Origin: Candidatus Laterigemmans baculatus
GTDB taxonomy: Bacteria; Planctomycetota; Planctomycetia; Pirellulales; Pirellulaceae
Length of the DNA stretch: 64,000 nucleotides
NCBI RefSeq assembly: GCF_010367455.1
Contig: NZ_WRPR01000148.1
Coordinates: 1-64,000 of the forward strand
Direction of reading: 5' to 3'
The notes beneath the pieces were generated by a model that was not told the origin of the DNA, did no database searches, and was given only the letters and a program-made list of their open reading frames with translations. Both the position numbers and the translations under genes were made by a program. How positions within the stretch are numbered: position 1 is the stretch's first letter; every line of letters begins with the position of its first letter. Positions 17,577-34,347 of this stretch are shown here, one piece after another.

Positions 17577-19598
17577 TCAAAACCGGATCTCGATGCCGGC
17601 GTCGGGATCGCTCTCGGGTTCCGTAACGTAAGCGACGAGCTCCAGAGGCAGGCCGTCCAGGAAGTACGCCTCATCCCCTTTAGAACTGCCAGACGCTGTC
17701 CAGCCACGTTCAGCTCTGGTGATGTGTAGTTCGTCCGCAGCCCTCGTCAGGGCGACGTAGAGCACGCGGCGCTCTTCTTCGGCTTCCTTCTCCGTGAGCC
17801 CAGGCTGCGGAAACGTACCTCTGGCGACGTCGACGACGAAGCATCGCTGCGCCTCAAGACCCTTGGCGGAATGGATGGTGATGATCTTGACTAGATCCGT
17901 TTCCCCCTTCTTCTCCAGTTGCTTCTCGTAGACGGGATTCAGCGAGTACTCGTCCACAAATGCGTGTACCGTCCGGTGTTTCTTCGCCAACTGGCGAATG
18001 TACGTGAAGTCGCGTCTGCGGGCGTCCCAGTGGTCATTCCGATAGATCTTTGCCATCGGCTTTTCCATTGCGTCGAGCACGGCTCCAAGCAGCTCGTCCG
18101 GCTTCGACGACGCCGTGAGACAACGGAGAAGCGGTTCCGTCCAGCCCGCACTATCCGAAGCCTTGGCGTCCCGGACCATGTCGAGCAACGGCGTCTCTGT
18201 GTTCCTCCCGCGTCCGACCGAATCCTCCGCTCCAAGTGCGAGCTGTCGGAAAATGCGTTCCGCAGTGACCTCGCCGATTCCCTTCCAGAGCTGGAGATAT
18301 CGCATCCATGCCAGCTCGTCCCAACGATTGGCGTAAATTCGCAGGAGCGCCATTACGTCTTTGACATGTTTGGCGCCGAACAAGCTCTGGCCACCGATCA
18401 GGACGTGCGGGATCTTCCTCGAGAGGAACTCGGACTCCACGGCCCGCGCACTGTAGCCGCTCCGGACGAGCACCATGTTGTTCGCCCACCGCTGCTCCGT
18501 GCAGAAGGACGTCACGATCGTCTCGGCAACGTAGTCGGCTTGGCTCCACTGATCCTCGAATTCGCGGAGGATCGGCTTCTGCCCAGCCCCTCTGGCCGCA
18601 CGAAGCTCCTTGTCGTATTCGAGTGGCGAGCGCTCCAGCAGCCAATTGCTGACGTCAAGGATCTCTTGCGTCGAGCGAAAGTTCTCTTGCAGCTTCAGGA
18701 CGACCGCGTCGGGATATCGCGAAGTAAATGCGTGAATGCTCTCGAAGTCAGCCCCTCGAAAGCCGTAGATCGACTGGGCGTCATCGCCCACACAGAACAG
18801 GTTTACGTGGGGCGCAAGCGCGTCGACGATCAAATACTGAAGCGGGTTGGTGTCCTGCATCTCGTCGATCATGACGTGCGAGAATCGCTTGCCGATCGCC
18901 TTCGCGATGGCGGGGCGGGCGATCTCTTCGGCCACTCGCTCCAGCACGTCGTCGTAGTCGATGTAGTTCCTGCTTCGTTTGAAGTCGACGTAAAACTTCG
19001 AAGCCTCGGTGTACTGCGAGAGCTTGTCCTCATCGATTCCGGCCAGCTTAGCTGCTTCTTCAGCCGGGAGCCGAGTGTTCACGAGGAGCGAATGGAAGTC
19101 CGCGAGGTCTCTCGCTTTCGGAAGGTTTTGAGACGCGTGGGTTTTACGGTACCGCTGAAGCAAGGTGATGACGTCGTCCCGGTCGATCAGCGAAGGCGAC
19201 TCCAGCTTGAATACATTCGGATTATTGCGAATCAGTCGCATCGCCCAGGAATGGAAAGTAGAGGCGGTAACGAGGCTACGTTTTCCTTCTGGTCCCCGGA
19301 TCCGCGAGCGAATCTCGTGGGCCGCGCGCCGGGTGAACGTGATGAGCAGAATTTCACGCTCTGGGACACCCGAGCGGATCAGGTGATTGCAGCGGCCAAC
19401 GATCGTCGTCGTCTTCCCGGTTCCAGCACCGGCCAGCACGAGAACGTGTTTTGCGGTAGTCTCGATCGCTGCGAGTTGTTCAGCGTTGAATGAAGAGTTC
19501 GAATCCACGGATGCAGCCCGATGTGCGTGCGAGGCGAATCGGCATAGGAGGCCGAATCTATCGTAATTGGAGCGATGTCGAACCGCTGCAGTCGGCAC
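17577..19598 (-). CDS. UvrD/Rep-family superfamily 1 DNA helicase
   Basis: This ATP-driven helicase of the UvrD/PcrA/Rep group has up to 673 residues. Visible motifs are Q/I (FNAEQLAAI and GAGTGKT at 57-63), Ia (LLITFTRRAAHEI), II (DEMQDTNPLQY), III (GDDAQSIYGFRGAD), IV (LQENFRSTQEIL), V (ITIHSAKGLEAQRCFV) and VI (EEERRVLYVALTRAADEL). No nuclease domain is visible. A GTG at 19508, just before FNAEQ, is a more natural start than the ATG at 19598. It is shorter than housekeeping UvrD (about 720) and lies at the 3' end of the leftward motor-helicase gene set, 150 bp after the small zinc-ribbon gene. Membership of that operon is therefore possible but not certain. Confidence 0.9.
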   Translation of the reverse strand: MPTAAVRHRSNYDRFGLLCRFASHAHRAASVDSNSSFNAEQLAAIETTAKHVLVLAGAGTGKTTTIVGRCNHLIRSGVPEREILLITFTRRAAHEIRSRIRGPEGKRSLVTASTFHSWAMRLIRNNPNVFKLESPSLIDRDDVITLLQRYRKTHASQNLPKARDLADFHSLLVNTRLPAEEAAKLAGIDEDKLSQYTEASKFYVDFKRSRNYIDYDDVLERVAEEIARPAIAKAIGKRFSHVMIDEMQDTNPLQYLIVDALAPHVNLFCVGDDAQSIYGFRGADFESIHAFTSRYPDAVVLKLQENFRSTQEILDVSNWLLERSPLEYDKELRAARGAGQKPILREFEDQWSQADYVAETIVTSFCTEQRWANNMVLVRSGYSARAVESEFLSRKIPHVLIGGQSLFGAKHVKDVMALLRIYANRWDELAWMRYLQLWKGIGEVTAERIFRQLALGAEDSVGRGRNTETPLLDMVRDAKASDSAGWTEPLLRCLTASSKPDELLGAVLDAMEKPMAKIYRNDHWDARRRDFTYIRQLAKKHRTVHAFVDEYSLNPVYEKQLEKKGETDLVKIITIHSAKGLEAQRCFVVDVARGTFPQPGLTEKEAEEERRVLYVALTRAADELHITRAERGWTASGSSKGDEAYFLDGLPLELVAYVTEPESDPDAGIEIRF

Positions 19599-19748
19599 TG
19601 CAAGGCCAACAAGCAGAACTCACGCCGCATCGGCGCCGGCATTTCAAGATTGCTCCCACCGAGCCTGCGCGTGCCGTTGAGCGGAGGTGCCGGCTACCGT
19701 AGTGATTTTTTAGCTATCAGAGAGGCACCGGCGGGCATGCGGATTCGG

Positions 19749-19973
19749 TCACTCCTGCTTTAGGTAGATGTTCTGGTCAAATTGGGTGCACTGCCATTCT
19801 GGATCGTCTCCGGAAATACAGCACCCTCCCAATACGGTTTTGCCTGACTGAATTTCCTGTTCCAGTTCATCGGAAAAATGAGGCAATCCATACACGATCC
19901 TGGCGACTGGTTGGCCGCCACATTTCGGGCACTTGACGGGCTTTTGAGAAGCTTCAATTCGGGCTTCCGCCAT
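19749..19973 (-). CDS. Small zinc-ribbon protein
   Basis: This 74-aa protein has CPKCGG (residues 15-20), then a VYGLP segment, then the GGCC-SGDDPEWQC block. This is the layout of a widespread small bacterial protein family in which two cysteine pairs probably bind zinc. The last pair is less regular than usual (a single final Cys), so the ribbon may be imperfect. The function of the family is not known. The gene follows the MotB-like gene by 99 bp on the same strand. Confidence 0.6.
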   Translation of the reverse strand: MAEARIEASQKPVKCPKCGGQPVARIVYGLPHFSDELEQEIQSGKTVLGGCCISGDDPEWQCTQFDQNIYLKQE

Positions 19974-20072
19974 TTATCTAGTCCCTTTCCACTTGCGATG
20001 GATGCGATGTGTCCGCCTCCGTGCCGGACCGCGAGCGAATGGCCCCGAATGCCTTCACGCACTGTGGACCGA

Positions 20073-21095
20073 TCATTCGGGAAGTTTCGGAGTTTTGCCG
20101 ATGTAGCCGGTGGGCGTCAGGACGTTTTCGACGAGCCAGTCGGGGGCGGCGCCTGTGTAGCCCTCAAAATCCAGCATCGCTCCTCGGCCTCCGATCGCGA
20201 GCAGCAAATCTCGGAAATCGGTTGCGGAGAGCGTGACCCCGTTGATGGTGGCCGTTCGAGCGTCGCCATCGATGCGAACGGTGACGGCCGGATACATCGA
20301 TTCGGTCACCGGACCCGCCTCATTGAGGTTGTTGTTGACTGCCCGCTCAATCTCCGCTTCTGCGTACTTCGGCACATCGACATCTCCTGCTATGAAGCCG
20401 GAAAGAGTCACTGAATAGGTGACCCCGATCCTCTCGTCGGTTACCGTGTAACTCCCGGTGGTTGGATTGATTTGCTTGTATCGAGAGAATGCTTCGTACA
20501 GCCGGTTGATCTCGCTCGCGGTGTAGAATCGCTGCTGCCGACAATGCATCGCCAGGTCCGCCAGTTCACTTTTCAGACGCACAAGGTAGGCCAGGTCACT
20601 CTCGCCAGATTGACGCGTCGTTGCGTGCCGGAATTCCTTCTGACGGACGAACACGAAGCGATCTCTGTCGTAATCGAACGCGACTTGAAGCCCCGCTGGC
20701 TCCGTGGCTCCAGTGAATCGCTGTTCGCCCTGCAGCGCCGCCAGTTTGCTCGACACCGCCGACTCTTGCTCAGCGAGTCGCGACCGCATCTGCTGAATTT
20801 GCTGGTTCTGCGATTCCAGTCGCTGGCGATACGCGGCCATTTCCGCTTGCTGCTTCTGCAACTGCTCCGCGAGCTTCTGCACTTCCTCCGGACTCAGGGT
20901 GTCGACCGTTTCCGGTACCGTCACCCCGGGGACTTCGGCGATCGTCACCGTGCTCGCTCGAACCCTCTGGGAGACTTCGACGGCCAGAGTCACGACGAAC
21001 AGCACGAGAACGACTAGCGCACAGAACACCAGGTCCGCGAAAGTTTCGTGAGCGCTGGAATGGGTCGATGAGTAATGGTCGCTGAGCGATTTCAT
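20073..21095 (-). CDS. MotB/ZorB-position membrane protein with coiled coil
   Basis: This 340-aa protein has one N-terminal transmembrane helix at about residues 19-43 (FADLVFCALVVLVLFVV). It carries an aspartate (D21) at the place where MotB/ExbD/ZorB stator proteins carry the proton-binding Asp. A coiled coil follows (residues 68-120, rich in Q/E/L/R). The globular C-terminal half (about 150-340) was not recognised. The peptidoglycan-binding OmpA-like motif usual in ZorB and MotB is not evident. Its ATG overlaps the stop of the MotA/ExbB-type gene (ATGA, 21092-21095), so the two are translationally coupled, as stator pairs are. It probably forms an ion-driven membrane complex with that protein. 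Confidence 0.7.
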   Translation of the reverse strand: MKSLSDHYSSTHSSAHETFADLVFCALVVLVLFVVTLAVEVSQRVRASTVTIAEVPGVTVPETVDTLSPEEVQKLAEQLQKQQAEMAAYRQRLESQNQQIQQMRSRLAEQESAVSSKLAALQGEQRFTGATEPAGLQVAFDYDRDRFVFVRQKEFRHATTRQSGESDLAYLVRLKSELADLAMHCRQQRFYTASEINRLYEAFSRYKQINPTTGSYTVTDERIGVTYSVTLSGFIAGDVDVPKYAEAEIERAVNNNLNEAGPVTESMYPAVTVRIDGDARTATINGVTLSATDFRDLLLAIGGRGAMLDFEGYTGAAPDWLVENVLTPTGYIGKTPKLPE

Positions 21096-22144
21096 GCGGT
21101 CACCTCAACCGGTTTGCCGGCACGCGAGTTTTTCCGAAGCCGGGGCGTGATCTGAACTTCCGTCAGCGATGCGATGTAGGAGACAAAGTGATCCACATTG
21201 GAGGTATAGACGTTGTTCAGCACCCGCAGTACGACGCTGCCGAGAATCGCTCCCACGAGCGTCGTGTAGAACGCTGTTCCAAGACCAGCCATCGTCGACC
21301 TCAGCCCGGTCATGAGGTCCCCAGGGTCGCTTGTCTCCCCCAGGCTTTCCAATGTCACGCCGAGGCCGCTGGTCATCGTGATCAACCCGACGACGGTTCC
21401 GATCAGACCCAGCGAGACCAGCACACCCGACAGCACCTCGACAATCTTGGCCCGAGCCATCATGCGACTGTAGAGCAGCGTGACGAGGCTGTCCTGGGAA
21501 ACGTTCGGGTCATGCTTAGCGATCTTCACGAGATCCTGAATATGCCGGTGAAACACTCCCGAGGGAGAGACGGCCACAATTTCATTTAAGCCCCCAGCCG
21601 TTTTCAGCTTCTTCAGTAGGAACGCGGCACAGACAAACTCGTTGCGCAGGCCTTTGACTGCCCGAAAATTCAGAACGACCCCCAGCCCAAACAGCCCCAT
21701 GATCAGCAGCACCAGCCCGCTACCGTCAGTGACGACCGCCCGCACCATGTGGATCCCTGCCGCTGCAACAATGAGGATCCCAATGACCGCCGCGTAAATG
21801 ATCCACTCGCGAAGCGGATCACGGTCGAGCGCTAGGTTTCGATCTCGCTGCGCCTCGGCCGCCAGTCGCTGTGTGAGAACCTGGCTGGCCGCTTCTTTCT
21901 TCATTGCGCCCCGCTGCTCTCGGCGCTGCTGTTCCCCGAGCTGGCGCCCCACCTCGTCCATTTTCTCCTTCTCGCCCGGCACCTGCAGAAGCCCATGGCA
22001 CTCGGGGCACGGAGCTTCATCACCGGCTTCCATGATGCTCGAGGTGAGTCGGGTCCGGCAGTGTGGGCAGTCGTACTTCACGGCCAGGCCTGCCATTCCC
22101 GGCTTGACTTCGTATTTCTCGATCCGTCGGTATGCTGTGCTCAT
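21092..22144 (-). CDS. MotA/TolQ/ExbB-family proton channel with N-terminal zinc ribbon
   Basis: This 350-aa protein begins with a zinc ribbon (CPHC at 26-29, CPEC at 46-49). A charged helical linker and two transmembrane helices (about 115-160) follow. Next comes the MotA/ExbB core with a long cytoplasmic loop and two more helices. The signature GLIGTVVGLITM and the later STMAGLGTAFYTTLVGAILG are clear. Such proteins form the five-subunit channel of proton-driven motors. ZorA of Zorya defence is of this type but carries a long cytoplasmic coiled-coil tail, which is absent here. The zinc ribbon is an unusual addition. It sits between the 215-aa gene (102-bp gap) and the coupled MotB-like gene. 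Confidence 0.85.
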   Translation of the reverse strand: MSTAYRRIEKYEVKPGMAGLAVKYDCPHCRTRLTSSIMEAGDEAPCPECHGLLQVPGEKEKMDEVGRQLGEQQRREQRGAMKKEAASQVLTQRLAAEAQRDRNLALDRDPLREWIIYAAVIGILIVAAAGIHMVRAVVTDGSGLVLLIMGLFGLGVVLNFRAVKGLRNEFVCAAFLLKKLKTAGGLNEIVAVSPSGVFHRHIQDLVKIAKHDPNVSQDSLVTLLYSRMMARAKIVEVLSGVLVSLGLIGTVVGLITMTSGLGVTLESLGETSDPGDLMTGLRSTMAGLGTAFYTTLVGAILGSVVLRVLNNVYTSNVDHFVSYIASLTEVQITPRLRKNSRAGKPVEVTA

Positions 22145-22246
22145 TCGATGTTTTGGCCGGGGAAAGTGAGTGGGCGGTGGTTGGTGTAGGCCGTTGGAGA
22201 GAGCGAGTTGTCGATGAAACGGTTGCGACCGGGAGGCCTGCGGAGA

Positions 22247-22894
22247 TTATTTGTCTTCCCAGAACCGGATGCTGTTCGGGTCGACGAACCACCAAGCAGC
22301 ACGCGCATAAATCTCGGCCATGCGAGCGGTAGGCAGCGACTTGGGAGCGGCAAGCGTCCACACAAAGAGGCCGGCGGGTGCTCCGGCCGCCGTAGTCTGA
22401 GCCAGGTAGTCTACGAGGATCTGCGGGCGGTCGTGTAACCGACCGCTGAACGTGCGGAAATCTCTGGCCTTGTGAACGTGGCAGCGAGGGTCGAGCAGAA
22501 TCACCCCGCTTGTGTCTTCGGCAGAAAGCCGACCCAGTCCCTCGACTGTCGTGACAGTCAGTCCACCTGCCCGCCAGCGTTCTCGTCGACCATCACGCTT
22601 CACGGATACGCCATGGGCCTCGAACATTCCTCTCGCGGTTTCGGTGAAAGGTTTCGACGAGCACACCACAATCCACCGCTGTGCATCGTTAAGCTGTGAC
22701 AACGCAGCGAGCTTTCGAATCATCGGTTCACAGGACGTGAAGCCGCCGGAGAACATGCCCAGGTGGGAGCTCGCCAGATCGTTCAGCTGCCCCGTGTCCA
22801 AATCGGACTGCTGTATCACCCGTTGCCCATCACGAGTGACGCGTCGCAAATGCATCCTTAAATCAGTCGTGGCCATGGCGTCGGTAATACTCAT
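22247..22894 (-). CDS. Unrecognised protein of the motor-helicase operon
   Basis: This 215-aa protein has no recognised family. It is predicted soluble, with alternating hydrophobic strands and helices that suggest an alpha/beta fold (RWIVVCSSKPF, then GVILLDPR, then GLFVWTLAAP). The ATG lies 4 bp after the stop of the helicase gene, so it is almost certainly co-translated with it and may be its partner. A phospholipase-D-type HKD motif was considered for CHVHKARDF, but the spacing does not fit. It is the most likely place for a new domain in this system. Confidence 0.6.
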   Translation of the reverse strand: MSITDAMATTDLRMHLRRVTRDGQRVIQQSDLDTGQLNDLASSHLGMFSGGFTSCEPMIRKLAALSQLNDAQRWIVVCSSKPFTETARGMFEAHGVSVKRDGRRERWRAGGLTVTTVEGLGRLSAEDTSGVILLDPRCHVHKARDFRTFSGRLHDRPQILVDYLAQTTAAGAPAGLFVWTLAAPKSLPTARMAEIYARAAWWFVDPNSIRFWEDK

Positions 22895-22898
22895 TTTC

Positions 22899-25316
22899 TT
22901 ACTCCACGGGGGTGCCGCAGTTCATGCAGAAACGAGACGCTGAAGGGATGTTCGCTTGGCACTCAGAGCAGGCGGCGTGGGCCGTGCCGCTCAGCAATTC
23001 GAGCCCGGGCTCGCCGAACTTCTGGATCTGCGGCGATGCTTCGGTGAGTGCTGACCGCAACTCTTTGAGCACCGCGACAGCCGCGGACTTGCTGGCTGTG
23101 GTGGCCTGATGGGGATGGGCGACGCAACGGAAGCACCCTTCGTCCCCCTCACAGTCGCAAGAGGAAATACGGTCCAGCGACTTCTCGATGAGCGCGGGCA
23201 TGTGATCGTAAGCCTCGCGCACCAGCCCGACGCCGTCGTAGGCCATGTCATAAAGTACGATCGCCGGCTCGCCACCTCCAAGCTTGGTACATCCGGACGA
23301 ATAGTCCTGAGGGTCGCAGGGGCCCGTCACTGTCGGGAACAGCCCGCACATCAGTCGCTCAACCGATTCGAGGGCGGTGCGGAACCGCTCTCCGAGCTTG
23401 TTGCGAAGCACCTCGGCCAGTGGCCCTTTCAAGACGAGCAATGTCGCTTCGGTCGGTAAACGATGTGCTGGCATTCCCGCCGGGTTCGGCCAACTGCGAA
23501 CGACGTTGCCGCCAGGGTCTTTTTCCGTCAGGCAGCTGAGAAACTCGGTGACGTCAACGCGTCCCGTCGCCAACTTGACGCGGGGGTAGTCACTCGATTC
23601 GCTGAACCGTTTCAGGCGGATATCTTTGCGGATATACGCGATCGTTTCATTGCGAGTCATCTCCCGGGCAAGTCTCACGATCCGCTTGCCCCGGATGATG
23701 TCCTTCACTCGGTAAGTCCGCCCGCCATGGCGGTAGATCGCGTTCCTCGGAGCCTCGCGGAGCAGGTGGAAAGCACCGATCTGGCCAATGGCATCGCCGC
23801 CGTCGCACAGCTCATAGTTGGAGTCCCCGCTGGTGCGGAGATTGAGTTCGCCGTGAGGATCGTTCCGGTAGAACTCTTCCGGGTCGAGCTTTCCTTCATC
23901 TCGGAGTTGGCGGATCTGGACGGCCGTGGGGCCCAGTAGCTCCGCCTCGACTAGCTTCTCGTCGCCGCCCAATTCCTGAATCGCACAAGCGTAGTGGTGC
24001 CGCACGAGTCGCTCGTTTTCCACGTTAATGGCGATCGGCTCGTTGTCTCGAGCGAAGAGCTCGTCCGGATGCCGCGCATAGTAGGTGTCGATTGGCGAAT
24101 CACCGGGGATCAGGACGATGGCTCCCTCGCGTCCAGCCCGAGCAACTCGCCCGGCTCGCTGCCAGAGGCTCATCATCGATCCCGGCAGCCCGATGCAGAT
24201 CACGACGTCGAGTTGGCCGATGTCGATTCCCAACTCCAAGGCGCTGGTGGAGAAGACCAGCCGCTTGCTCTTCTCCCGGAGTCCTCGCTCAATCTCTTCC
24301 CGCTCAGCGGACGAGAGCCCAGAGCGGTAGACGGCCACGTGTTCATCAAAGGACCCGTCGCTGCGCCGCATGCGCGAGAGCATGCGTTCGGCGGCGACGC
24401 GGCTGGGACAGAACGCCAGCACGCTGAGCCCCTGGTCGGCTAGCGACATTGCCAGCTTCCGGCCGATGTCATAGTGGTGGTCCGCTCCACCGACCATCCA
24501 AAACTTGCGGCGTCCCTGACGGCTGCGGTCCTCTTCGGGGCCGACCAGAGCGAAAACATGGCCGGTGAGCAGCTTCATGTGCTTCTGCGGATCGGCGATC
24601 GTCGCGGAGGAAGCGATGAAAGTCGGATCCGATCCGTGCAGCCTGCAGATTTGGCGAAGGCGTCGCAGCAGCAGCGACACTCCGCTTCCGAAAACGCCGC
24701 GGTATTCGTGGCACTCGTCGATTGCCACATACTTGAGATTGGCGAAGAAACGTCCCCAGTGCGTGCCATGGTGCTGCAGGATGCCGAGGTGCAGCATGTC
24801 GGGGTTGCTCAGCAGGAACTGGACCTGTTCGCGGATCGGCTTTCGGTCATCCTTCTCCACATCGCCGTCGTAGCGGCTGATCAAGTACGGGTGCTGCTCC
24901 AACCGCGAGGCGACCGATGGAGTGCCAGCGGCCAGCCTCCGCAAGTTCAGCAGCTGGTCGTTTGCCAGCGCCTTTTGCGGGTACAGGAACAGGCTGGTCG
25001 CTTCGGGATCGCGACAAAGAGTGTCGATTGCGGGAAGCGAGAATGTCAGCGATTTGCCGCTGCTCGTGCGCGTCGCCGTAACCGTGTGCGCCCCCCGCAA
25101 GGCACTTTCGATCGCTCGGAACTGGTGGGCGAAGAGACCATCGGGGAAGGCAGGCCCCAGAGCCGCGACAACGTCCGGATGCAGGGACGAGTCGGCGAGC
25201 GGAACGAACTCGCCCTCGGTAGGTCCCGCGGCGGGCGGATCGTACAAGACGTTCCAGTCGGGGTTCGCGGCGATGGTCTGTTCGGCGAGTTCAATCGGCG
25301 ACGTGGGGGCGAGCAT
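22899..25316 (-). CDS. MrfA/YprA-like DEAD/DEAH helicase with DUF1998 domain
   Basis: This 805-aa superfamily 2 helicase has Walker A TRTSSGKS (82-89), DECH box (200-203), SAT motif III (237-239) and motif VI QRAGRVARAGR (386-396). A C-terminal DUF1998 region follows, with a cysteine cluster (CDCEGDEGCFRC, about 725-740) and a final zinc ribbon (CSEC and CMNC, 783-800). The order matches MrfA of Bacillus, which acts in mitomycin-damage repair. Related DUF1998 helicases serve the DISARM and Druantia defence systems but are larger. The extra C-terminal ribbon is not usual in MrfA. It is the first gene of the leftward operon, 53 bp downstream of a sigma54-type promoter element. Confidence 0.9.
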   Translation of the reverse strand: MLAPTSPIELAEQTIAANPDWNVLYDPPAAGPTEGEFVPLADSSLHPDVVAALGPAFPDGLFAHQFRAIESALRGAHTVTATRTSSGKSLTFSLPAIDTLCRDPEATSLFLYPQKALANDQLLNLRRLAAGTPSVASRLEQHPYLISRYDGDVEKDDRKPIREQVQFLLSNPDMLHLGILQHHGTHWGRFFANLKYVAIDECHEYRGVFGSGVSLLLRRLRQICRLHGSDPTFIASSATIADPQKHMKLLTGHVFALVGPEEDRSRQGRRKFWMVGGADHHYDIGRKLAMSLADQGLSVLAFCPSRVAAERMLSRMRRSDGSFDEHVAVYRSGLSSAEREEIERGLREKSKRLVFSTSALELGIDIGQLDVVICIGLPGSMMSLWQRAGRVARAGREGAIVLIPGDSPIDTYYARHPDELFARDNEPIAINVENERLVRHHYACAIQELGGDEKLVEAELLGPTAVQIRQLRDEGKLDPEEFYRNDPHGELNLRTSGDSNYELCDGGDAIGQIGAFHLLREAPRNAIYRHGGRTYRVKDIIRGKRIVRLAREMTRNETIAYIRKDIRLKRFSESSDYPRVKLATGRVDVTEFLSCLTEKDPGGNVVRSWPNPAGMPAHRLPTEATLLVLKGPLAEVLRNKLGERFRTALESVERLMCGLFPTVTGPCDPQDYSSGCTKLGGGEPAIVLYDMAYDGVGLVREAYDHMPALIEKSLDRISSCDCEGDEGCFRCVAHPHQATTASKSAAVAVLKELRSALTEASPQIQKFGEPGLELLSGTAHAACSECQANIPSASRFCMNCGTPVE

Positions 25317-25368: not shown

Positions 25369-25384
25369 AGCAACGAAGTGACCA
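25369..25384 (-). promoter_or_regulatory. Sigma54-type -24/-12 promoter for the helicase operon
   Basis: On the minus strand the sequence reads TGGTCACTTCGTTGCT. This gives GG and GC dinucleotides exactly 10 bases apart and a TTGCT -12 box, against the sigma54 consensus TGGCACG-N4-TTGCW. Transcription would start near 25358, about 40 bases before the helicase ATG. The divergent gene encodes a sigma54 activator, which makes the match far more meaningful than sequence alone. Confidence 0.65.
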
Positions 25385-25472: not shown

Positions 25473-25501
25473 CCACAAATAAGCCTGTATTCACCACAAA
25501 T
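25473..25501. repeat. Direct repeat, candidate activator-binding site
   Basis: CCACAAAT occurs at 25473-25480 and 25494-25501, 21 bp apart, which is two helical turns. It lies about 115-145 bp upstream of the predicted sigma54 start site, the usual place for an enhancer-binding protein, and directly before the regulator's own promoter. Confidence 0.45.
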
Positions 25502-25505
25502 GCCT

Positions 25506-25534
25506 TTGTTCCTGGCCCCGCCGCTGATTAATCT
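25506..25534 (+). promoter_or_regulatory. Sigma70-type promoter for the regulator gene
   Basis: TTGTTC and TAATCT with a 17-bp spacer lie about 75 bp before the regulator ATG. The adjacent CCACAAAT repeat would allow self-regulation by the activator. Confidence 0.45.
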
Positions 25535-25608: not shown

Positions 25609-27198
25609 ATGACTCGGCGACGTGTTCTGATTCAGTGGATCGGCCATAGCGACCTCAAAGCACTTGCTGCCACGCTGCCGGCGGACCGACGCCGCAAGGT
25701 GCTCGAATGCACCGGCGGTGACGCTGGCACTCAAACGGATCAGGGACCGACAAAGTGCCTGCTGTCAGAGGTCTCGTTCGATCGGGTGTTGCTGCTGAGC
25801 AATTACCCGCCTGCCATCAACCGTTGGTTTGCGGAGTGGGTCGGGACGCCCGTCACTTTCGTCCCTGTCGAGCTGCAGCGCCCGACCGATTACGGCCGCA
25901 TCTTCGAGATCTGCGAGCAGCAGTTGCGGGAGTTGAAAAGCGATCGCAGGTGGAGTGATGCAGAGATCTGCCTGCACCTCAGCCCGGGAACGCCTGCGAT
26001 GACGGCGGTGTGGCTGCTGCTGGGCAAGACGCGCTATCCGGCGACGTTCTACGAGACTTCCCGCGCCGGCAAAGTTTGGATCACGGACGTCCCGTTTGAG
26101 CTGCTCGACGTCATCCCCGACGTGCTGCAGAAGCCGGACTCCTACCTCCAGCATCTGGCGTCGGAGGCGCCGGCGGAAATCGATGGCTTCGAGGACATCG
26201 TTGGCAACAGCCAGCCGATCCGCGACGCCGTGGGGCGAGCCAAACGTGCGGCCATGCGGAGCGTCTCGGTGCTGCTGCTCGGTGAGAGCGGGACCGGCAA
26301 GGAGATGTTCGCCCAGGCGATGCACCGAGCTAGCCCTCGCAACGGCGCCCCGTTCAAGGCGATCAATTGCGCGGCGATTTCCAAGACGCTGCTTGAGTCG
26401 GAGCTGTTCGGCCACGCCAAGGGAGCGTTTACAGGAGCCGAGCAGCACCGCAAAGGGGCGTTCGAGGCGGCTGACGGCGGCACGATCTTTCTCGATGAAG
26501 TCGGAGAGTGCGACCTCGACACGCAGGCCAAGCTGCTGCGGGTGCTCCAGCCGATCACCGGCGAGGGCGTTGCCGTCCGCAAGGTATGTCGGCTCGGCGA
26601 AGAGAAGGACCGCAAGGTCGATGTGCGGATCATCGCGGCCACCAACCGCGACCTGCACGCAGCAATCTCACGCGGCGAGTTTCGCGAGGACCTGTACTAC
26701 CGGCTGGCGGCCGTCACGATCACACTGCCTCCGCTGAGGAACCGCCGCACCGACATCGCTGCGATCGCTGAGCGGTTGCTCGAGCAAATCAACCGCCAGT
26801 TCGCCGCGGAGGAGCCTGGCTACCGGCACAAAACGCTTTCTGCTTCCGCAACCGCGTTTGTGAAGGGGCACTCCTGGCCGGGGAACGTCAGGCAGTTGTA
26901 CAACGCTCTGGTTCAGACGGCCGTGCTCACCGACGGAGAAAAGATCGGTCGCCGCGAACTGGCCGCAGCCGCCGGGGAAACGCTGGCCGCGGGGGCCGGG
27001 GACGCCGCTGTAGCCGACCGCCCGCTGGGGAACGGGTTTAACCTGGACGAGCACCTGAATTCCATCCATAAACGTTACCTGGAGCGAGCGATGAGCGAAG
27101 CGAACGGCGTCAAGGCGGAAGCCGCCCGCCTGCTCGGCATGAAGAACTACCAGACCCTCGATGCGCAGCTGAAACGGCTGGGGGTGCGGGAGAATTAA
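25609..27198 (+). CDS. RtcR-like CARF/sigma54 AAA+/Fis transcriptional activator
   Basis: This 529-aa bacterial enhancer-binding protein has a Rossmann-like CARF-type sensor at residues 1-175 (VLLLSNYPP at 60-68 and the GT-type ligand loop LHLSPGTPAMTA at 122-133). The sigma54 AAA+ domain follows, with Walker A GESGTGKE (225-232), the sigma54-contacting loop GAFTGA (272-277) and Walker B GGTIFLDEVGE (290-300). A Fis-type helix-turn-helix lies near 495-525 (KAEAARLLGMKNYQTLDAQL). RtcR has the same order and senses RNA-end-derived ligands to switch on rtcBA. No rtcBA is present here; the divergent helicase-motor operon with a sigma54 promoter is the evident target. CARF domains generally bind nucleotides, so the ligand may be a cyclic oligonucleotide or RNA fragment. 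Confidence 0.88.
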   Translation: MTRRRVLIQWIGHSDLKALAATLPADRRRKVLECTGGDAGTQTDQGPTKCLLSEVSFDRVLLLSNYPPAINRWFAEWVGTPVTFVPVELQRPTDYGRIFEICEQQLRELKSDRRWSDAEICLHLSPGTPAMTAVWLLLGKTRYPATFYETSRAGKVWITDVPFELLDVIPDVLQKPDSYLQHLASEAPAEIDGFEDIVGNSQPIRDAVGRAKRAAMRSVSVLLLGESGTGKEMFAQAMHRASPRNGAPFKAINCAAISKTLLESELFGHAKGAFTGAEQHRKGAFEAADGGTIFLDEVGECDLDTQAKLLRVLQPITGEGVAVRKVCRLGEEKDRKVDVRIIAATNRDLHAAISRGEFREDLYYRLAAVTITLPPLRNRRTDIAAIAERLLEQINRQFAAEEPGYRHKTLSASATAFVKGHSWPGNVRQLYNALVQTAVLTDGEKIGRRELAAAAGETLAAGAGDAAVADRPLGNGFNLDEHLNSIHKRYLERAMSEANGVKAEAARLLGMKNYQTLDAQLKRLGVREN

Positions 27199-27322
27199 GG
27201 ACTGCGAGAGCCGTCCCAAGAGTTAAACGGCAGCCGTTGGCACACACGTTGCCAAAAGGGGCTCGTCGAGTCCGAACGGGCCAAAGACAGGCAGCAGCGC
27301 AAGAGCCGCAGGGAGAGCAAAA

Positions 27323-28789
27323 GTGATCACCGCGATCGAAATCGAAAACTTCAAGTGCTTCGGCCAGCGGCAGCGCATCACGGTGGCTCCGATCACACTA
27401 CTTTTCGGAGCGAATAGCGCAGGCAAATCGTCATTCTTCCAGTCACTGTTTTATCTGCAGCAGATCTTCGAGACGTACTCGGCAAATCCATTCGCTCTTT
27501 CGAGTTTTACGGACGGTTTTGACCTCGGCGGATATTCTCAAGTCGTTTTCGGGCACGAGATTGACAGGGAGATGACATTCCGTATCGAGTGTTGGGTTGA
27601 GGAGGAAGAAGTTCACATTCCTTTGCTTTTGCGGGGACAAGAGGAAGACGCCGGTATTTATTCCTTCGGTGCTTCCGAGATCGCAATCGAGTTAACCGTC
27701 TCAATAGCGGAAGACGGGTATGGGGGCATCGTGCGATGCTTCAAACTGTTTGCAGATGACAAACAGCTAGTCCAGTTCGAAGCTGGTGGGCTGGATGAGC
27801 TTGGCAAATTTCGCGATTTCACCGCGACATTCTTCTATGAAAACCTTGAGCAAAAGGTAGACGTCCCCGATCAGCGCGAGAACCCCTGGAAAACGTTCTA
27901 TGGCTACGGAGCCCTTCCCAGTCGTTATGATCCGCCGCTGTCGGCAGGAGTTCGCCTCGATGACAGGACACTTTCGGAAGAGGAGTTTCAGTTTGGCCGG
28001 GAAGTCGATCAGTTCTGTAGCGCTGCAGTAGAATGCGTTCGAAATCACCTAAACAATCTGCTTTACATCGGCCCGGTGAGGCAGGTGCCGCCTCCAAACT
28101 ATTCGCCAGTGCCACTACCGAGGTTGCAGCGATGGGCATCGGGACTAGCCGCTTGGGATATGCTGCACTATGGGGGTGGTGACCGCATCGCTCAGGTCAA
28201 TTTCTGGCTCGGTCCTGACCGACTCGACACCCGGATAAATATCGAATATCAACGACTGTTTGCACGCCCTGATATGCCGCGGCTTCCCGTTCAAAGTGAC
28301 CAGTCGCCGCGAATTCGTCTCAGGCCGCTGGTGACTGGTTCGGCAACGCCTGGTCCCGCTGTGCTCCGTGTGCAGGACGTAGGCTTCGGCATTTCACAGA
28401 TTCTTCCTGTCGTCGTGGCATTGCTTGTAGCCAAGGAAGACTACGTGCTCGTCGAGCAGCCTGAACTGCATTTGCATCCGCGTTTGCAAACGGAACTTGG
28501 TGATCTTCTGATTGAAGCCTGTGTCGGCGATGAGAAGACCAAGCGGGCCATCATGGAGACACACAGCGAGCATTTGATTCTGCGGGTCCTGCGTCGCATT
28601 CGTGAAACCACCGACGGAGAACTGCCGGACGGATTCCAGGAAGTCGGTCCGGGCGATGTCTCAGTAAATTATCTTGAGCCTGCTGAAGAGGGAACGAAGA
28701 TAATGCGCCTCCGCATCGATGACGACGGAGAGTTCGTCGACCGATGGCCGCATGGATTTTTTGATGAGCGAGCGGAGGAGCTGTTCTGA
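27323..28789 (+). CDS. AAA15/DUF3696 ATPase of defence module A
   Basis: This 488-aa SMC/OLD-like ABC-type ATPase has Walker A GANSAGKS (29-36), signature-like region VLRVQDVGFGISQILPVV, Walker B VLVEQPELHLHPRLQ and the H-loop METHSEHLILR. It ends with the DUF3696 tail (PHGFFDERAEELF). Between the halves is a long variable insert (about 60-330). It lacks a TOPRIM domain, unlike GajA or OLD nucleases, so it needs a partner for any nuclease action. It starts with GTG after AGGGAG. Its stop overlaps the next start (28787-28789), which couples it to the 308-aa gene. A second ATPase of the same kind is at 38914-40800. Confidence 0.85.
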   Translation: MITAIEIENFKCFGQRQRITVAPITLLFGANSAGKSSFFQSLFYLQQIFETYSANPFALSSFTDGFDLGGYSQVVFGHEIDREMTFRIECWVEEEEVHIPLLLRGQEEDAGIYSFGASEIAIELTVSIAEDGYGGIVRCFKLFADDKQLVQFEAGGLDELGKFRDFTATFFYENLEQKVDVPDQRENPWKTFYGYGALPSRYDPPLSAGVRLDDRTLSEEEFQFGREVDQFCSAAVECVRNHLNNLLYIGPVRQVPPPNYSPVPLPRLQRWASGLAAWDMLHYGGGDRIAQVNFWLGPDRLDTRINIEYQRLFARPDMPRLPVQSDQSPRIRLRPLVTGSATPGPAVLRVQDVGFGISQILPVVVALLVAKEDYVLVEQPELHLHPRLQTELGDLLIEACVGDEKTKRAIMETHSEHLILRVLRRIRETTDGELPDGFQEVGPGDVSVNYLEPAEEGTKIMRLRIDDDGEFVDRWPHGFFDERAEELF

Positions 28790-29715
28790 TGATCCATACG
28801 TTCGCCATCGAACCTAGCGTTCTCTCGGATCCTCTGAACCGTCGATACTTCCTAGAGCAGTTCGGTGTGTCTAAGGGGAGGGTTATAGCCGGACTCCCTC
28901 GCGAATGGCATCGGAAGGTGTATCGACTTCTCGCGGGTGAGATGAAGGATCGGGAGCGGCGTCTATATGAAGAGCAATTGCTGCATCTCCGCAAAGCAGT
29001 GCGGCCGCTCGACCCGCCGATCGAGACGGTGCCGAATATGGCCGAGTGGTTGCAGTACGCAGAGGACTACCAAATTTCCCATGAGAAGCCGTTCCGTGCA
29101 ATTGTCGCAGTAGAGAACCCTCGTGAACGAGAGTGGGTTATCAAAGCAGCCGAGGTAAACGAAGGATCGCCAAACTGGCACGTGAGACGGCAGGATAAAG
29201 TCCCTCGCACCCCCGAAAGCCTTGTTGAAGTGTCGCTCCCTTTGCTTGAGATCTCACGAGAGGTTCTGCTCGTCGACCCGTACTTCGATCCCAGTGCAAG
29301 TCGGTACGTAAAGTCGCTCAGAGCATTGATGACCGCCCTGGCTCCTAGAGCGAGAAAACTTGCAAGAGTCGAGCTGCATTGTTTTCGGCATCTCAACGCA
29401 GACGAGCAGTTCTGGAAACGTTGTGAGACGGTGTTGCCAGCGCTGATTCCCGAGGCGATGAGTCTATCTGTTCATCGCTGGAGTGCCGCAGTATCCGGAG
29501 AGCGGTTTCATCGCCGGTATGTGCTTACTGAGCAAGGCGGGATCGCTTTCGAAGGTGGGCTTGACTGCGGACGTGAAGGGGAGTCGACCGACGTGTTTCT
29601 GTTGGAAGACGAACTGCGACTCGTACGATGGGCTGAGTACCAGGCAGATTCGGACGTGTTTCAGCCCGATCCTGAAGGGCCGCGAGAGATCAGCGGCGAG
29701 GCATGGGTGACCTAG
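28789..29715 (+). CDS. Partner of the DUF3696 ATPase, possible PLD-fold protein
   Basis: In this 308-aa protein residues 150-290 read like a phospholipase-D-fold module: VLLVDPYFDPSASRYV, then RFHRRYVLTEQGGIAFEGGLD (about residues 242-262). The last segment stands where active PLD enzymes have HxK(x)4D, but here the lysine is replaced (HRR). It may therefore be a degenerate or differently acting nuclease. The N-terminal 100 residues are charged and helical and were not recognised. It is translationally coupled to the ATPase gene, which points to a two-component toxin/sensor or nuclease complex. The assignment rests on motif reading only. Confidence 0.55.
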   Translation: MIHTFAIEPSVLSDPLNRRYFLEQFGVSKGRVIAGLPREWHRKVYRLLAGEMKDRERRLYEEQLLHLRKAVRPLDPPIETVPNMAEWLQYAEDYQISHEKPFRAIVAVENPREREWVIKAAEVNEGSPNWHVRRQDKVPRTPESLVEVSLPLLEISREVLLVDPYFDPSASRYVKSLRALMTALAPRARKLARVELHCFRHLNADEQFWKRCETVLPALIPEAMSLSVHRWSAAVSGERFHRRYVLTEQGGIAFEGGLDCGREGESTDVFLLEDELRLVRWAEYQADSDVFQPDPEGPREISGEAWVT

Positions 29716-29855: not shown

Positions 29856-31394
29856 ATGATCACTGGTGAAGTTAAGTCGCAGGTTGATGCGATTTGGAAT
29901 GCGTTTTGGACGGGTGGGATATCGAATCCGCTGGAGGTCATTGAGCAGATCACCTATCTGCTGTTCCTCAAACGGCTTGATGATCTGCATACGCTCGAGG
30001 AGAACAAGTCGACACGGCTCAAGAAGCCAATGGAGCGGCGGGTGTTTCCTGAGGGAAAGGATCCGAAGGGGCGTTCCTACGAGGATTTCCGCTGGTCCAA
30101 ATTCAAGCACTTCGCCCCCGCCGAGATGTTCGAGGTCGTCTCGCAGCACGTCTTCCCGTTCCTGCAAAAGCTCGGGGGCGACGGGTCGACCTACGCCCAC
30201 CACATGAAGGACGCCCGGTTCACGATTCCCACCGCAGCGCTGCTGGCCAAGGTGGTCGACATGATCGACCGGGTCCCGATGGAGGATCGGGACACCAAGG
30301 GCGATCTGTACGAGTATATGCTGGGCAAAATCGCCGCCGCGGGGCAGAACGGCCAGTTCCGCACTCCACGTCACATCATCCAGTTGATGGTCGAGATGAC
30401 CGAACCGGACGCGAAAGACGTGATCTGCGACCCGGCCTGCGGGACGGCCGGTTTCTTGGTCGCGGCCGGCGAATATCTACGCGACCATCGGCCGGAAGTG
30501 CTCCGCGACTCACGGCTGAAAAAGCACTTTCACGAGTCGATGTTTCACGGCTTCGATTTCGACAGCACGATGCTGCGGATCGGCAGCATGAACATGTTGC
30601 TGCACGGCGTCGAAAATCCCGCCATCCGCTACCGGGACTCGCTGGCTGAGGAGCACGGTGGGGAGGAGGAGCGGTACACGCTGGTGCTGGCCAACCCGCC
30701 CTTTGCCGGCTCGCTCGACTACGAGAGCTGCGCCAAGGATCTGCTGCAGATCGTCAAAACCAAGAAGACCGAACTGCTGTTCCTGGCCTTGTTCCTGCGG
30801 CTGCTCAAGCCGGGCGGCCGGGCGGCGATCATCGTTCCCGATGGGGTGCTGTTCGGGTCCTCGAAAGCCCACAAGACGCTACGGAAGATCTTGGTCGAGG
30901 ACCAGAAGCTCGACGGAATCGTTTCGCTTCCGGGCGGGGTCTTTAAGCCGTACGCGGGGGTTTCGACGGCGATCCTGCTGTTCACGAAGACGAATTCGGG
31001 CGGCACCGACCAGGTGTGGTTCTACGACATGGCGGCCGACGGAAAGTCGCTTGACGACAAGCGGACCGAATTACTCCCGCCGGAGAAGCAGGGTCCGGTG
31101 CCGAGCGTGCGGCTGGCGAAGGACGAGCACGCCAAGAACAACTTGCCCGACGTGCTGAAGCGGTGGGGTAAGCGGGACAAGGGGGAACGCAAGAACCCGC
31201 GGACGGCGCAGAGTTTTTGCGTGCCGAAAAGCGAGATCGCCGAGCAAGGTTATGACCTATCGATCAACCGCTACAAAGAAGTGGTGCACGAGGAGGTGGT
31301 GCACCGCCCGCCGCAAGAGATCCTGGCGGGGCTGGAGGAACTGGAAAATGAGATTCAGCGAGGCATGAAGGAACTGCGGGGGATGCTGAAGTGA
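29856..31394 (+). CDS. hsdM: Type I restriction-modification DNA methyltransferase subunit
   Basis: HsdM transfers a methyl group from S-adenosylmethionine to adenine in the sequence chosen by HsdS. The 512-aa protein has the N-terminal HsdM helical domain (VIEQITYLLFLKRLDDL), the GQFRTPRHI entry, SAM-binding motif I DPACGTAGF (192-200) and catalytic motif IV NPPF (280-283). Length and order are normal. The stop overlaps the start of hsdS by 4 bp. It is the first gene of a five-gene rightward operon that also holds an AbiE-type toxin-antitoxin pair. No promoter could be placed firmly in the 140 bp before it. Confidence 0.95.
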   Translation: MITGEVKSQVDAIWNAFWTGGISNPLEVIEQITYLLFLKRLDDLHTLEENKSTRLKKPMERRVFPEGKDPKGRSYEDFRWSKFKHFAPAEMFEVVSQHVFPFLQKLGGDGSTYAHHMKDARFTIPTAALLAKVVDMIDRVPMEDRDTKGDLYEYMLGKIAAAGQNGQFRTPRHIIQLMVEMTEPDAKDVICDPACGTAGFLVAAGEYLRDHRPEVLRDSRLKKHFHESMFHGFDFDSTMLRIGSMNMLLHGVENPAIRYRDSLAEEHGGEEERYTLVLANPPFAGSLDYESCAKDLLQIVKTKKTELLFLALFLRLLKPGGRAAIIVPDGVLFGSSKAHKTLRKILVEDQKLDGIVSLPGGVFKPYAGVSTAILLFTKTNSGGTDQVWFYDMAADGKSLDDKRTELLPPEKQGPVPSVRLAKDEHAKNNLPDVLKRWGKRDKGERKNPRTAQSFCVPKSEIAEQGYDLSINRYKEVVHEEVVHRPPQEILAGLEELENEIQRGMKELRGMLK

Positions 31395-32596
31395 CGGAAT
31401 GGCAGGCTCATCGCATGTCGGAATTAGTCGAGGAAGCTAAGCCTGGATTTGCATGCGGAAAGAACCCTGAGAGCGGCGTCTTCCAACTTAGGATGAATAA
31501 TGTAACGAAAGAGGGGCAGCTAGATCTTTCAAAGCAGCGCCGTGTTCCGAAAGAAACCAAGCGGCTCGCCTCATATTTGTTGGAGCCAGGGGATGTTTTG
31601 TTCAATGCTACGAATAGCCCCGACCTCGTTGGGAAGTCAGCATATTTCGATGGCCACCTTGAGCCGGTCGTATTCAGCAATCATTTTGTTCGGATACGTC
31701 CACGCAGGGATGTACTGGATGGACGCTATCTCGCCCGCTGGCTAACGTTTCAATATCAGCGGCGAATTTTTCAGTCAATGTGCCGGCAGTGGGTAAATCA
31801 GGCTACTGTTGGACGCGACTCGCTGCTCTCGCTCATGATTCCCCTTCCCCCCCTTCCCGAGCAGCGGCGGATTGCGGAGGTGCTGGATCGAGCGGAGGCG
31901 TTGCGGGCCAAGCGTCGCGCCGCCCTCGCCCAACTCGACGAGCTCACCCAGTCGATCTTTCATGAAATGATTGGGAGACGTGCGAATCCAATTGAGACGA
32001 TTGGCGACCTTCTGGAGCGAGGGGCGCTTTTGCTTCACAAAGATGGAAACCATGGGAGTCTTTATCCCAGGTCCGAAGACTTCGGGGAGGACGGTGTACC
32101 GTTTCTCTCCGCAAAATCGATTTCCGACGATGGCGAGTTGATAAGCGATCTCGTTGAAAGGCTGAAGCCGGAGAAAGCGAGCAGGTTAAGGCTCGGTTGG
32201 CTTCAGCCGGACGATGTTTTGCTTGCGCACAACGCGTCTGTTGGAAAGGTCGCGACTTACGATGGCCGGTTCAATAAAGCGATAATCGGCACATCTTTAA
32301 CGGCATTCCGTTCAAATCGCAGCGATCTTGATCCGGCATATTTGGCTGCAGCTTTGCGCTCTGTGGCATTTCAGCGCCAGCTTGAACAAAACATGGGGCA
32401 GACGACGCGGAATCAGGTTCCGATCACAGCACAACGTCGACTGGTCTTGCCTGTTCCCTCTATGGATACACAGCTAGCGTTCGCACGCCGCGCATCGGAA
32501 GTTGAACGTCTTAAAGCGTCCCATCGCCGATCGCTCGCCGAACTCGACGCGCTGTTTGCATCGCTGCAGGATCGGGCGTTTAGGGGGGAGCTTTGA
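31391..32596 (+). CDS. hsdS: Type I restriction-modification specificity subunit
   Basis: HsdS sets the DNA target of the complex. The 401-aa protein has two target-recognition domains, each ended by a conserved helical spacer: PLPPLPEQRRIAEVLDRAEAL with RRAALAQLDELTQSIF (about 155-190), then VPSMDTQLAFARRASEVERL with RRSLAELDALFASLQDRAF at the C-terminus. The two halves differ, so the recognition sequence should be bipartite and asymmetric. The gene is intact and coupled to hsdM. Confidence 0.93.
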   Translation: MTEWQAHRMSELVEEAKPGFACGKNPESGVFQLRMNNVTKEGQLDLSKQRRVPKETKRLASYLLEPGDVLFNATNSPDLVGKSAYFDGHLEPVVFSNHFVRIRPRRDVLDGRYLARWLTFQYQRRIFQSMCRQWVNQATVGRDSLLSLMIPLPPLPEQRRIAEVLDRAEALRAKRRAALAQLDELTQSIFHEMIGRRANPIETIGDLLERGALLLHKDGNHGSLYPRSEDFGEDGVPFLSAKSISDDGELISDLVERLKPEKASRLRLGWLQPDDVLLAHNASVGKVATYDGRFNKAIIGTSLTAFRSNRSDLDPAYLAAALRSVAFQRQLEQNMGQTTRNQVPITAQRRLVLPVPSMDTQLAFARRASEVERLKASHRRSLAELDALFASLQDRAFRGEL

Positions 32597-32679
32597 GAGA
32601 GAGTGACTGCGGCCCCGGTGGAAGGGGCGGCCGCAGCCGCCCGGGCCGGGGTGGCGGACGGGTTTGATCGCGTTTGCTT

Positions 32680-32711
32680 CTGTCAGAAAAAGAGGGTGTT
32701 TTTTCTGACAG
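32680..32711. promoter_or_regulatory. 12-bp perfect inverted repeat, candidate AbiEi operator
   Basis: CTGTCAGAAAAA (32680-32691) and its exact reverse complement (32700-32711) are separated by 8 bp. The repeat ends 14 bp before the chosen start of the antitoxin gene, next to its AAAGGA ribosome-binding site. AbiEi antitoxins of studied systems bind inverted repeats upstream of their own gene to repress it. A terminator role is less likely because the hairpin precedes a coupled gene. Confidence 0.55.
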
Positions 32712-32725
32712 CAAAGGACTCGTTC

Positions 32726-33334
32726 ATGGCGGAAACTATCGAAAATCGCCTTCTCAAACGCATCCGTGGCGCTGGTCGCGGTTCGGTGTTCATTCCGAGC
32801 CAGTTTACCGACCTGGGCGGGAGGGCGGCAATTGACCAGGCCCTCTCGCGCCTCGCGGCTAGCGGGACCATCCGCCGCTTGGCACGGGGCGTTTACGACT
32901 ACCCCAAAACTCACCCCGTGATGGGCGAGCTCGCGCCAACGGCGGAGGCGGTTGCCAAAGCCATCGCAGGCCGGGACCAGACCCGTCTGCAGCCGGCCGG
33001 TGCGCATGCCGCAAACTTGTTGGGATTGTCGGAGCAGGTGCCGGCCAAGGTTGTCTATCTGACCGACGGAGCGACCCGCACCGTTCAGGTTGGCGGCCAA
33101 ACGATTCAGCTCCGTCAAACGACGCCACGAAACATGGCGGCTGCGGGACGCTTGAGCGGTTTGGTAATCCAGGCGCTGCGGCATCTGGGTAAAGAGCAGG
33201 TAACGGAACAACATATCGCTCAGCTCAAGCGAAATCTGCCGCTCAGCCAACGTCGAACCTTGCTGAAGGATCTGAAGCTCGCGCCCGTTTGGATGCACCC
33301 GCTGTTTCGCCAATTAGCGGAGGACGAGGAATGA
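32726..33334 (+). CDS. AbiEi-type antitoxin (DUF6088 family)
   Basis: This 202-aa protein has an N-terminal winged helix (VFIPSQFTDLGGRAAIDQAL, then RRLARGVYDYPKTHP) typical of the AbiEi/DUF6088 antitoxins, which repress their own operon and neutralise an AbiEii nucleotidyltransferase toxin. ATG 32726 was chosen because it has a clear AAAGGA site and follows the inverted repeat; the frame is open back to 32603, but that part would cover the repeat. The stop overlaps the toxin start (ATGA, 33331-33334). Its position between hsdS and hsdR suggests it guards the restriction operon or was inserted into it. Confidence 0.85.
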   Translation: MAETIENRLLKRIRGAGRGSVFIPSQFTDLGGRAAIDQALSRLAASGTIRRLARGVYDYPKTHPVMGELAPTAEAVAKAIAGRDQTRLQPAGAHAANLLGLSEQVPAKVVYLTDGATRTVQVGGQTIQLRQTTPRNMAAAGRLSGLVIQALRHLGKEQVTEQHIAQLKRNLPLSQRRTLLKDLKLAPVWMHPLFRQLAEDEE

Positions 33335-34347
33335 AGCTGGAGTTTCTTCGACTCCCGGCGGCCGAACGGGGTGCTTACTTCAGCGAGGCGGCAGCTCGGC
33401 GAGGTGTGTCGCCGATCATCCTGGAAAAGGACTTCTGGGTCTGCTGGATGCTCGGCATCTTATTCGAGTCTCCGTTCGCCAGCGACATCGTCTTCAAAGG
33501 GGGCACCTCGCTCTCGAAGGTCTTCGGCGTGATCGATCGTTTCTCCGAGGATATCGATCTCTCACTCTCGCCGGAGTTTTTGGAGTTGCCGGAGATTGGC
33601 ACGCCTCCGAGTCGAAACAAGGCGAACGAGTGGATGGAGAAAGCGGAGGCCGCTTGCGCGGCTGCAGTTCGCGACCGGTTGCAGCCGACACTCGAGGAGT
33701 CTGTAACCGAGGTGCTGGGTGAATCGACGTCGGCTTGGCTGGAGTTCCAAATCGACTCGATTTCGAATTCACCGGTTCTCTTGTTTCACTACCCAACGAC
33801 GCAGCCAGCGGGCTTCGCTTATCTCCGACGTTCCGTGAAGCTGGAGTTTGGCTCCCTGACCGATCAGCGCCCGACCGGACGGCACTCGGTGAAGCCGTGG
33901 CTGGCGGAAATCTTTCCAGTCGCCTTTCCGGATTGGGAATGCGAGGTTGTCGCCCTGGAGATTGAACGCACCTTCTGGGAGAAAGCGACTATTCTGCATG
34001 CGGAGCATTTTCGCCCGGCTGAGAAGTCGACGTCCGAACGCTTTTCCCGCCACTACGCCGACACCGCCGCCCTGGCTAGCCATGCCAGTGGTCTCTCCGC
34101 AATTGAACAAGCGGAAGCACGGGAGCGGGTCGTCCGCTGGAAGTCACAGTTTTTCGGGAGCGCTTGGGCTCGTTACGATCTTGCGGTTCCAGGTTCGTTT
34201 CAGTTGCTGCCGTCCCAAGACCGCATTCGCGAACTGGAGCGGGACTACGAAGCAATGAAAGACATGTATCTTACCGAGCCGTCGTCGTTCACAGACGTGT
34301 CGGCAACTCTGCAACACCTAGCCGATCGCATCAATGGGAAAACATGA
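33331..34347 (+). CDS. AbiEii-type nucleotidyltransferase toxin
   Basis: This 338-aa protein has the minimal nucleotidyltransferase signature of AbiEii toxins: VFKGGTSLSKVFG (54-66) followed by DRFSEDIDLSL (69-79), giving the GS/T and DxD catalytic elements. The upstream LEKDFWVCWML segment is also conserved in the family. AbiEii toxins act by adding nucleotides to cellular RNA, such as tRNA ends, in related systems. ATG 33331 was chosen because it overlaps the antitoxin stop; the frame opens upstream at 33289 inside the antitoxin gene. The 3' end overlaps hsdR by 14 bp. Confidence 0.88.
   Translation: MKLEFLRLPAAERGAYFSEAAARRGVSPIILEKDFWVCWMLGILFESPFASDIVFKGGTSLSKVFGVIDRFSEDIDLSLSPEFLELPEIGTPPSRNKANEWMEKAEAACAAAVRDRLQPTLEESVTEVLGESTSAWLEFQIDSISNSPVLLFHYPTTQPAGFAYLRRSVKLEFGSLTDQRPTGRHSVKPWLAEIFPVAFPDWECEVVALEIERTFWEKATILHAEHFRPAEKSTSERFSRHYADTAALASHASGLSAIEQAEARERVVRWKSQFFGSAWARYDLAVPGSFQLLPSQDRIRELERDYEAMKDMYLTEPSSFTDVSATLQHLADRINGKT

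Follow-up and report, generated by a model that had tools for sequence, protein, structure and literature searches.

RtcR, which regulates the rtcBA RNA-repair genes in E. coli and Salmonella, is a sigma54 activator that combines CARF, AAA+, and HTH domains. In the classic arrangement, RtcR controls an operon divergent from its own gene, and Ro60-type genes are RtcR targets. PspF, another sigma54 activator, is autoregulated through binding sites that overlap its own promoter and that also act as an enhancer for a sigma54 operon. RtcR-like CARF activators have been linked to restriction-modification (R-M) systems, with action on downstream genes predicted (PMC4012209), and they head CoCoNuT/type I R-M superoperons, for which downstream activation was likewise predicted (PMC11090510). 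In E. coli, sigma54 promoter sites have been located inside coding sequence (PMC4591121). As far as we have found, the route by which the CARF-sigma54 activators known beside restriction systems reach their targets is unmapped.

Here, we describe such a locus from Candidatus Laterigemmans baculatus (GCF_010367455.1), contained in the 64,000-nt stretch of DNA that we analyzed (contig NZ_WRPR01000148.1, positions 1-64,000) and hereafter call the window. Its activator has the same CARF-AAA+-HTH architecture as RtcR. Unlike in the RtcR system, the main target appears to be codirectional and to lie downstream of the activator gene, with a putative enhancer inside that gene. The upstream binding site looks similar to the PspF operators; the PspF system differs in that the pspA promoter is divergent and an intragenic enhancer is absent. 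Protein family and gene neighborhood are as in PMC4012209 and PMC11090510, whose available text is without promoter or enhancer mapping, whereas both elements are placed here from sequence. The sites described in the available text of PMC4591121 are also sigma54-system DNA within open reading frames; those are promoters, while the site proposed here would be an activator's enhancer in its own gene. A search of the literature outside subscription papers returned no report of a promoter position, of binding dyads, or of an enhancer within the activator gene. As far as we have found, then, the predicted post-stop promoter, the tandem dyad and its copy within the gene, the constraint on synonymous codons, and the fixed spacing are new.

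For comparison, we gathered loci of related activators, about 54 from Planctomycetota and 23 from Pseudomonadota, 4 of the latter on named plasmids. The whole activator as a query returned mostly unrelated sigma54 activators via the AAA+ domain, and CARF-only queries were used instead. Promoters were scored with a generic sigma54 matrix, approximated from the published consensus, and with a family matrix built from 41 promoters of the activator family, taken from past the activator stop; the two matrices agree.

The activator gene and its putative upstream binding site

Two features define the regulatory side of the locus:
25609-27198 (+), sigma54 activator of the CARF-AAA+-HTH, RtcR_PspF2 type, with a GAFTGA motif (PADLOC, Pfam)
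25475-25509 (+), predicted activator-binding site upstream of the activator gene, with tandem dyads ACAA-N6-CTGT (25475-25488) and ACAA-N6-TTGT (25496-25509), 21 bp apart

An initial annotation, made from the sequence alone, took this gene for a GAFTGA-bearing sigma54 activator, and the motif, Pfam, and PADLOC matches bear this out. The RtcR_PspF2 profile matches over its full length, CARF domain included (PADLOC PDLC01995, E 4.8e-160, residues 5-526), and the Pfam matches are Sigma54_activat (E 7.5e-66) and HTH_8, a Fis-type HTH. The same annotation had pointed to a CCACAAAT repeat, spaced by two helical turns, as a possible enhancer. The repeat is real and appears to be a tandem site matching a dyad conserved in the activator family: ACAA-N6-TTGT is held by 15 of 20 homologous upstream regions and occurs about 0 times in shuffles. 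Within the 64 kb, ACAA-N6-YTGT is found only at the two dyads listed above, and the site has a leave-one-out score of 12.5 (shuffle P = 0.002). A rigid 36-bp matrix of the intragenic site described below, tried on this region, gave P = 0.07 because the upstream dyads are 21 bp apart and not 20; the dyad-level search was clear.

In relatives, the upstream dyad usually lies about 38 bp before the activator ATG, and the copy in the window is further upstream. The TACAA(T/A) of the upstream site is preceded at 16-18 bp by a -35-like hexamer (mean of 3.3 of 6 matches, versus 2.4 in controls), and so the site probably doubles as the -10 element of the activator's own promoter. This overlap with a probable sigma70 promoter in relatives suggests autoregulation.

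One subgroup (L250-L258, L120-L124, L180, and L228) carries another half-site, ACAA/GCAA-N6-TTCT, upstream and in the gene alike, a pattern hinting that the two sites evolve together with the HTH domain. Four loci (L178, L179, L181 in G395, and L225 in G694) hold truncated or broken activator copies, suggesting decay.

The helicase side and candidate divergent promoters

Upstream of the activator, on the opposite strand, are the following:
22899-25316 (-), divergent DEAD helicase with an MrfA Zn-binding (DUF1998-type) domain, without a conserved link to the activator
25369-25384 (-), weak -24/-12-like element TGGTCACTTCGTTGCT, with correct GG-N10-GC spacing and low matrix scores

A sigma54 promoter precisely placed in front of the helicase operon had been proposed at 25369-25384, and its geometry holds in part. 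On the minus strand, GG and GC are indeed 10 bp apart, and a predicted start near 25358 would give the helicase transcript 42 nt of leader ahead of the ATG at 25316, close to the 40 bases given; the gap from TGG to TTGCT is N8, not N9 as described. The window holds 7 copies of TGG-N8-TTGCW, mildly more than the 3.55 expected, and the chance expectation for this pattern in the 292-bp intergenic gap is about 0.01-0.02, making a chance occurrence there unlikely. With the generic matrix, the element scores 7.5 bits, ranking 66th among 141 window sites of at least 6 bits, with P = 0.13 as the best minus-strand site of its 200-bp stretch. With the family matrix, it scores -3.3 bits, and 633 window sites are equal or better, because TGGTCACT is without the C and A after TGG. 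Its -24 element reads TGGTCA and is not of the TGGCAC type; among the family sites, C comes next in 40 of 41 and then A in 40 of 41.

Conservation was followed by scanning homologous loci. Divergent minus-strand elements of at least 10 bits, 30-230 bp from the upstream site, occur in 12 of 35 loci against 0.8 expected, with 0 on the other strand; in related loci, such sites stand 40-173 bp from the upstream binding site. Their presence in about one-third of related loci makes the idea of a divergent promoter sensible in kind. The genes that they precede include those for Ro60/TROVE, the Cap15 CBASS protein, an SNF2-HEPN helicase, and a DUF2130 protein. The upstream site alone was rejected as proof of a divergent promoter, since many loci carry the site without one. 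The activator's nearest relative (73% identity) has no divergent site, and one is absent from the near relatives L199 and L200. This helicase was found divergent from the activator, among the collected loci, only in the window. Helicase orthologues sought within the order yielded only relatives of about 34% identity, and so its promoter is not directly comparable. By consensus, no sigma70 promoter was found in the window's divergent gap.

It is possible, if doubtful, that the element at 25369-25384 functions as a weak divergent sigma54 promoter and brings the helicase operon under the same activator, with 25475-25509 as enhancer, such that the activator drives both flanks. The correct spacing would fit this, as would the distance of 90 bp to the edge of the tandem enhancer, next to 100 (L206), 112 (L198), 120 (L222), and 123 bp (L217) for strong divergent sites elsewhere. 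Such sites recur well above expectation, and the genes behind them include defense or RNA-repair functions (Ro60, Cap15, and the SNF2-HEPN helicase). Moreover, DUF1998-bearing YprA-like helicases occur in RtcR-headed defense superoperons, according to the available text of PMC11090510. However, the family-matrix score, the local P value, the lack of a divergent site in both near relatives, and the absence of this helicase from that place in all other collected loci weigh against it. Far below the family standard, the element is a poor candidate for a sigma54 promoter, and the promoter as first proposed is not upheld; the likeliest reading of 25369-25384 is a marginal or coincidental match next to the upstream binding site, rather than the main promoter.

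Some further features of these divergent regions deserve description. In L210-L216 and L219, an activator relative is transcribed divergently from Ro60/TROVE (Pfam-confirmed in L210, with similar open reading frames in the rest), and a TGGCAC/T...TGC element recurs in most of these loci, some 163-173 bp away from the binding site. In the window, the minus-strand run at 17577-25316 encodes the MrfA/DUF1998 helicase, a 215-aa open reading frame, a MotA/ExbB-like protein, a 340-aa coiled-coil protein, and a UvrD helicase. With weak ZorA matches, it resembles a Zorya-like membrane-motor defense set. The pair of MotA-like and coiled-coil genes is present without the helicase in 4 other genomes (L132-L135).

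A predicted codirectional promoter and a site inside the activator gene

Within and downstream of the activator gene, two elements and a codirectional operon come into view:
26827-26862 (+), putative intragenic enhancer with tandem dyads, codons HKTLSASATAFV (matrix scan, synonymous constraint)
27238-27253 (+), conserved sigma54 -24/-12 element TGGCACACACGTTGCC, 39 bp past the activator stop, with a predicted start near 27264
27323-28789 (+), AAA_15/AAA_21 ATPase, presumptive first gene of the target operon, best PADLOC match NsnB
28789-29715 (+), 308-aa partner open reading frame, with a homologue in L218
29856-31394 (+), HsdM, type I R-M methylase subunit, 45-48% identical to HsdM encoded codirectionally in many related loci
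31391-32596 (+), HsdS, type I R-M specificity subunit
32603-33334 (+), AbiEi-like antitoxin (DUF6088)
33289-34347 (+), AbiEii-like nucleotidyltransferase toxin
34334-37786 (+), HsdR, type I R-M restriction subunit

Most loci have a near-consensus TGGCAC/T...TTGC element 0-100 bp past the activator stop, on the activator's strand. At a threshold of at least 13 bits, it is found in 22 of 43 loci in the sense orientation and in 0 of 43 in antisense, with about 0.07 (0.065) expected from shuffles. The element at 27238-27253 is the best family-matrix site in the 64 kb (19.5 bits; 18.9 bits leave-one-out). It reads TGGCAC-N5-TTGC at the correct spacing, is conserved in place, adjoins the GAFTGA activator, and belongs to a genome in which rpoN is present. 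In most loci that have this downstream promoter, the activator is followed on its own strand by HsdR, HsdM, and HsdS, and type I R-M genes also come after it on named plasmids from Azotobacter and Pseudomonas luteola. The predicted conserved target is the codirectional ATPase/type I R-M operon, on the opposite side from the helicase.

Scanning with a matrix built from the upstream sites detected a second site within the activator gene, composed of ACAA-N6-TTCT (26828-26841) and GCAA-N6-TTGT (26848-26861), 20 bp apart. As is typical of the enhancers of bacterial enhancer-binding proteins (bEBPs), the dyads are spaced by about two helical turns (20 bp in the gene, 21 bp upstream), and the dyad is common to both sites. 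Across loci, the intragenic site lies about 350-380 bp before the stop and is seen only where the downstream promoter is present. There, the codons are held as CAC AAA nnn CTT TCT nnn nCC GCA Ann nnn TTT GTG (protein HKxLSxSAxxFV); in loci without the promoter, the synonymous choices vary freely.

This constraint was quantified with 3000 synonymous recodings per locus, drawn from the gene's own codon usage. The site in the window stands at z = 4.2 above its recodings, and 17 of 18 promoter-bearing loci lie 2.6-4.2 standard deviations above the recoding mean. Among the 14 loci without the promoter, only L207 stands that far above its recodings, and its downstream site, at 10.6 bits, falls narrowly short of the cutoff. 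A matrix from a Planctomycetota subgroup, tested on Pseudomonadota, gave a mean z of 2.5 with the promoter (14 loci) and 0.2 without it (7 loci). With a 10-bit cutoff and the two phyla combined, the fixed synonymous codons are seen in 30 of 33 promoter loci versus 0 of 20 others (Fisher P = 9e-12, a value to be read in light of the kinship among loci, which leaves cross-locus tests not fully independent). Tree-independent pairs stand at about 4.9 to 0 in agreement (sign-test median P = 0.06), and the promoter label switches at least 8-10 times on the tree. Three loci count against the model: L221 has the downstream promoter without the intragenic site, and L260 and L267 fall below z = 2.

The distance between the two elements is also held. 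From the center of the intragenic site to the TGG, 11 of 18 loci have 393-395 bp (393 bp in the window), while the components of this distance vary, with 345-384 bp from site to stop and 2-60 bp from stop to TGG (permutation P < 5e-5). Among the remaining 7 loci, distances of 403, 402, 363, and 353 bp differ by close to a whole number of helical turns; the fit is poorer for 368, 370, and 423 bp. In the Pseudomonadota set and its planctomycete cousins, the spacing clusters at 342-351 bp. Such held spacing is what DNA looping from an enhancer to sigma54-polymerase would require.

It is improbable that the intragenic stretch is instead kept for mRNA structure, for codon-choice control of the folding of the AAA+ lid, or as a roadblock or repressor site. 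The stretch is directly followed by the WPGNVR motif conserved in sigma54 activators, and so the protein is conserved there too. Yet, promoterless loci encode similar amino acids without fixed codons, the stretch shares its ACAA-N6-TTGT/TTCT dyads with the upstream site, and its distance to the promoter is held despite indels. Very improbable is the notion that the operon is driven solely by readthrough from the activator's sigma70 promoter, with the -24/-12 elements as relics: the next gene is a short distance away in many loci and a probable -35/-10 precedes the activator in relatives, but a strong element kept in half of these diverged loci, together with the conserved enhancer spacing, indicates selection.

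We consider it likely that a CARF-sensing sigma54 activator has as its main target the codirectional defense operon, via 27238-27253 and the intragenic enhancer at 26827-26862. The elements, their conservation, their co-occurrence, and their spacing were read from the DNA, and we infer the binding, looping, sigma54 dependence, and signal of the scheme that follows. A ligand arising from infection or RNA damage would bind the CARF domain, and the ligand-bound activator would occupy the intragenic enhancer. About 393 bp of DNA would then loop between enhancer and promoter, allowing the activator to open sigma54-RNA polymerase at 27238-27253 for transcription of the genes for the ATPase, the 308-aa open reading frame, HsdM, HsdS, AbiEi/AbiEii, and HsdR. 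The other copy of this binding site, in front of the activator gene, would provide autoregulation and in some loci may also serve a divergent sigma54 promoter.

With slightly less confidence, we also regard it as likely that the activator gene carries its own enhancer through the choice of synonymous codons in the AAA+ lid region, with the looping distance to a promoter right after its stop preserved. The gene would then be a portable, single-gene control unit for restriction systems that move horizontally, shared by at least two phyla. If true, an enhancer written into its activator's synonymous codons, and kept at its spacing despite indels, would mean that a single gene suffices to move the control circuit. 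With the promoter, the enhancer, and the distance between them precisely placed, it also becomes possible to test directly whether a signal of infection or RNA damage induces type I restriction.

Two minor observations concern the wider window. The AbiEi/AbiEii-like toxin-antitoxin genes (32603-34347, +) sit between HsdS and HsdR, within the type I R-M operon. Finally, in the first 9 kb, identical 16-mers at 4003/5362 and 7104/8656 (+), with spacings of 1359 and 1552 bp, hint at duplicated genes.
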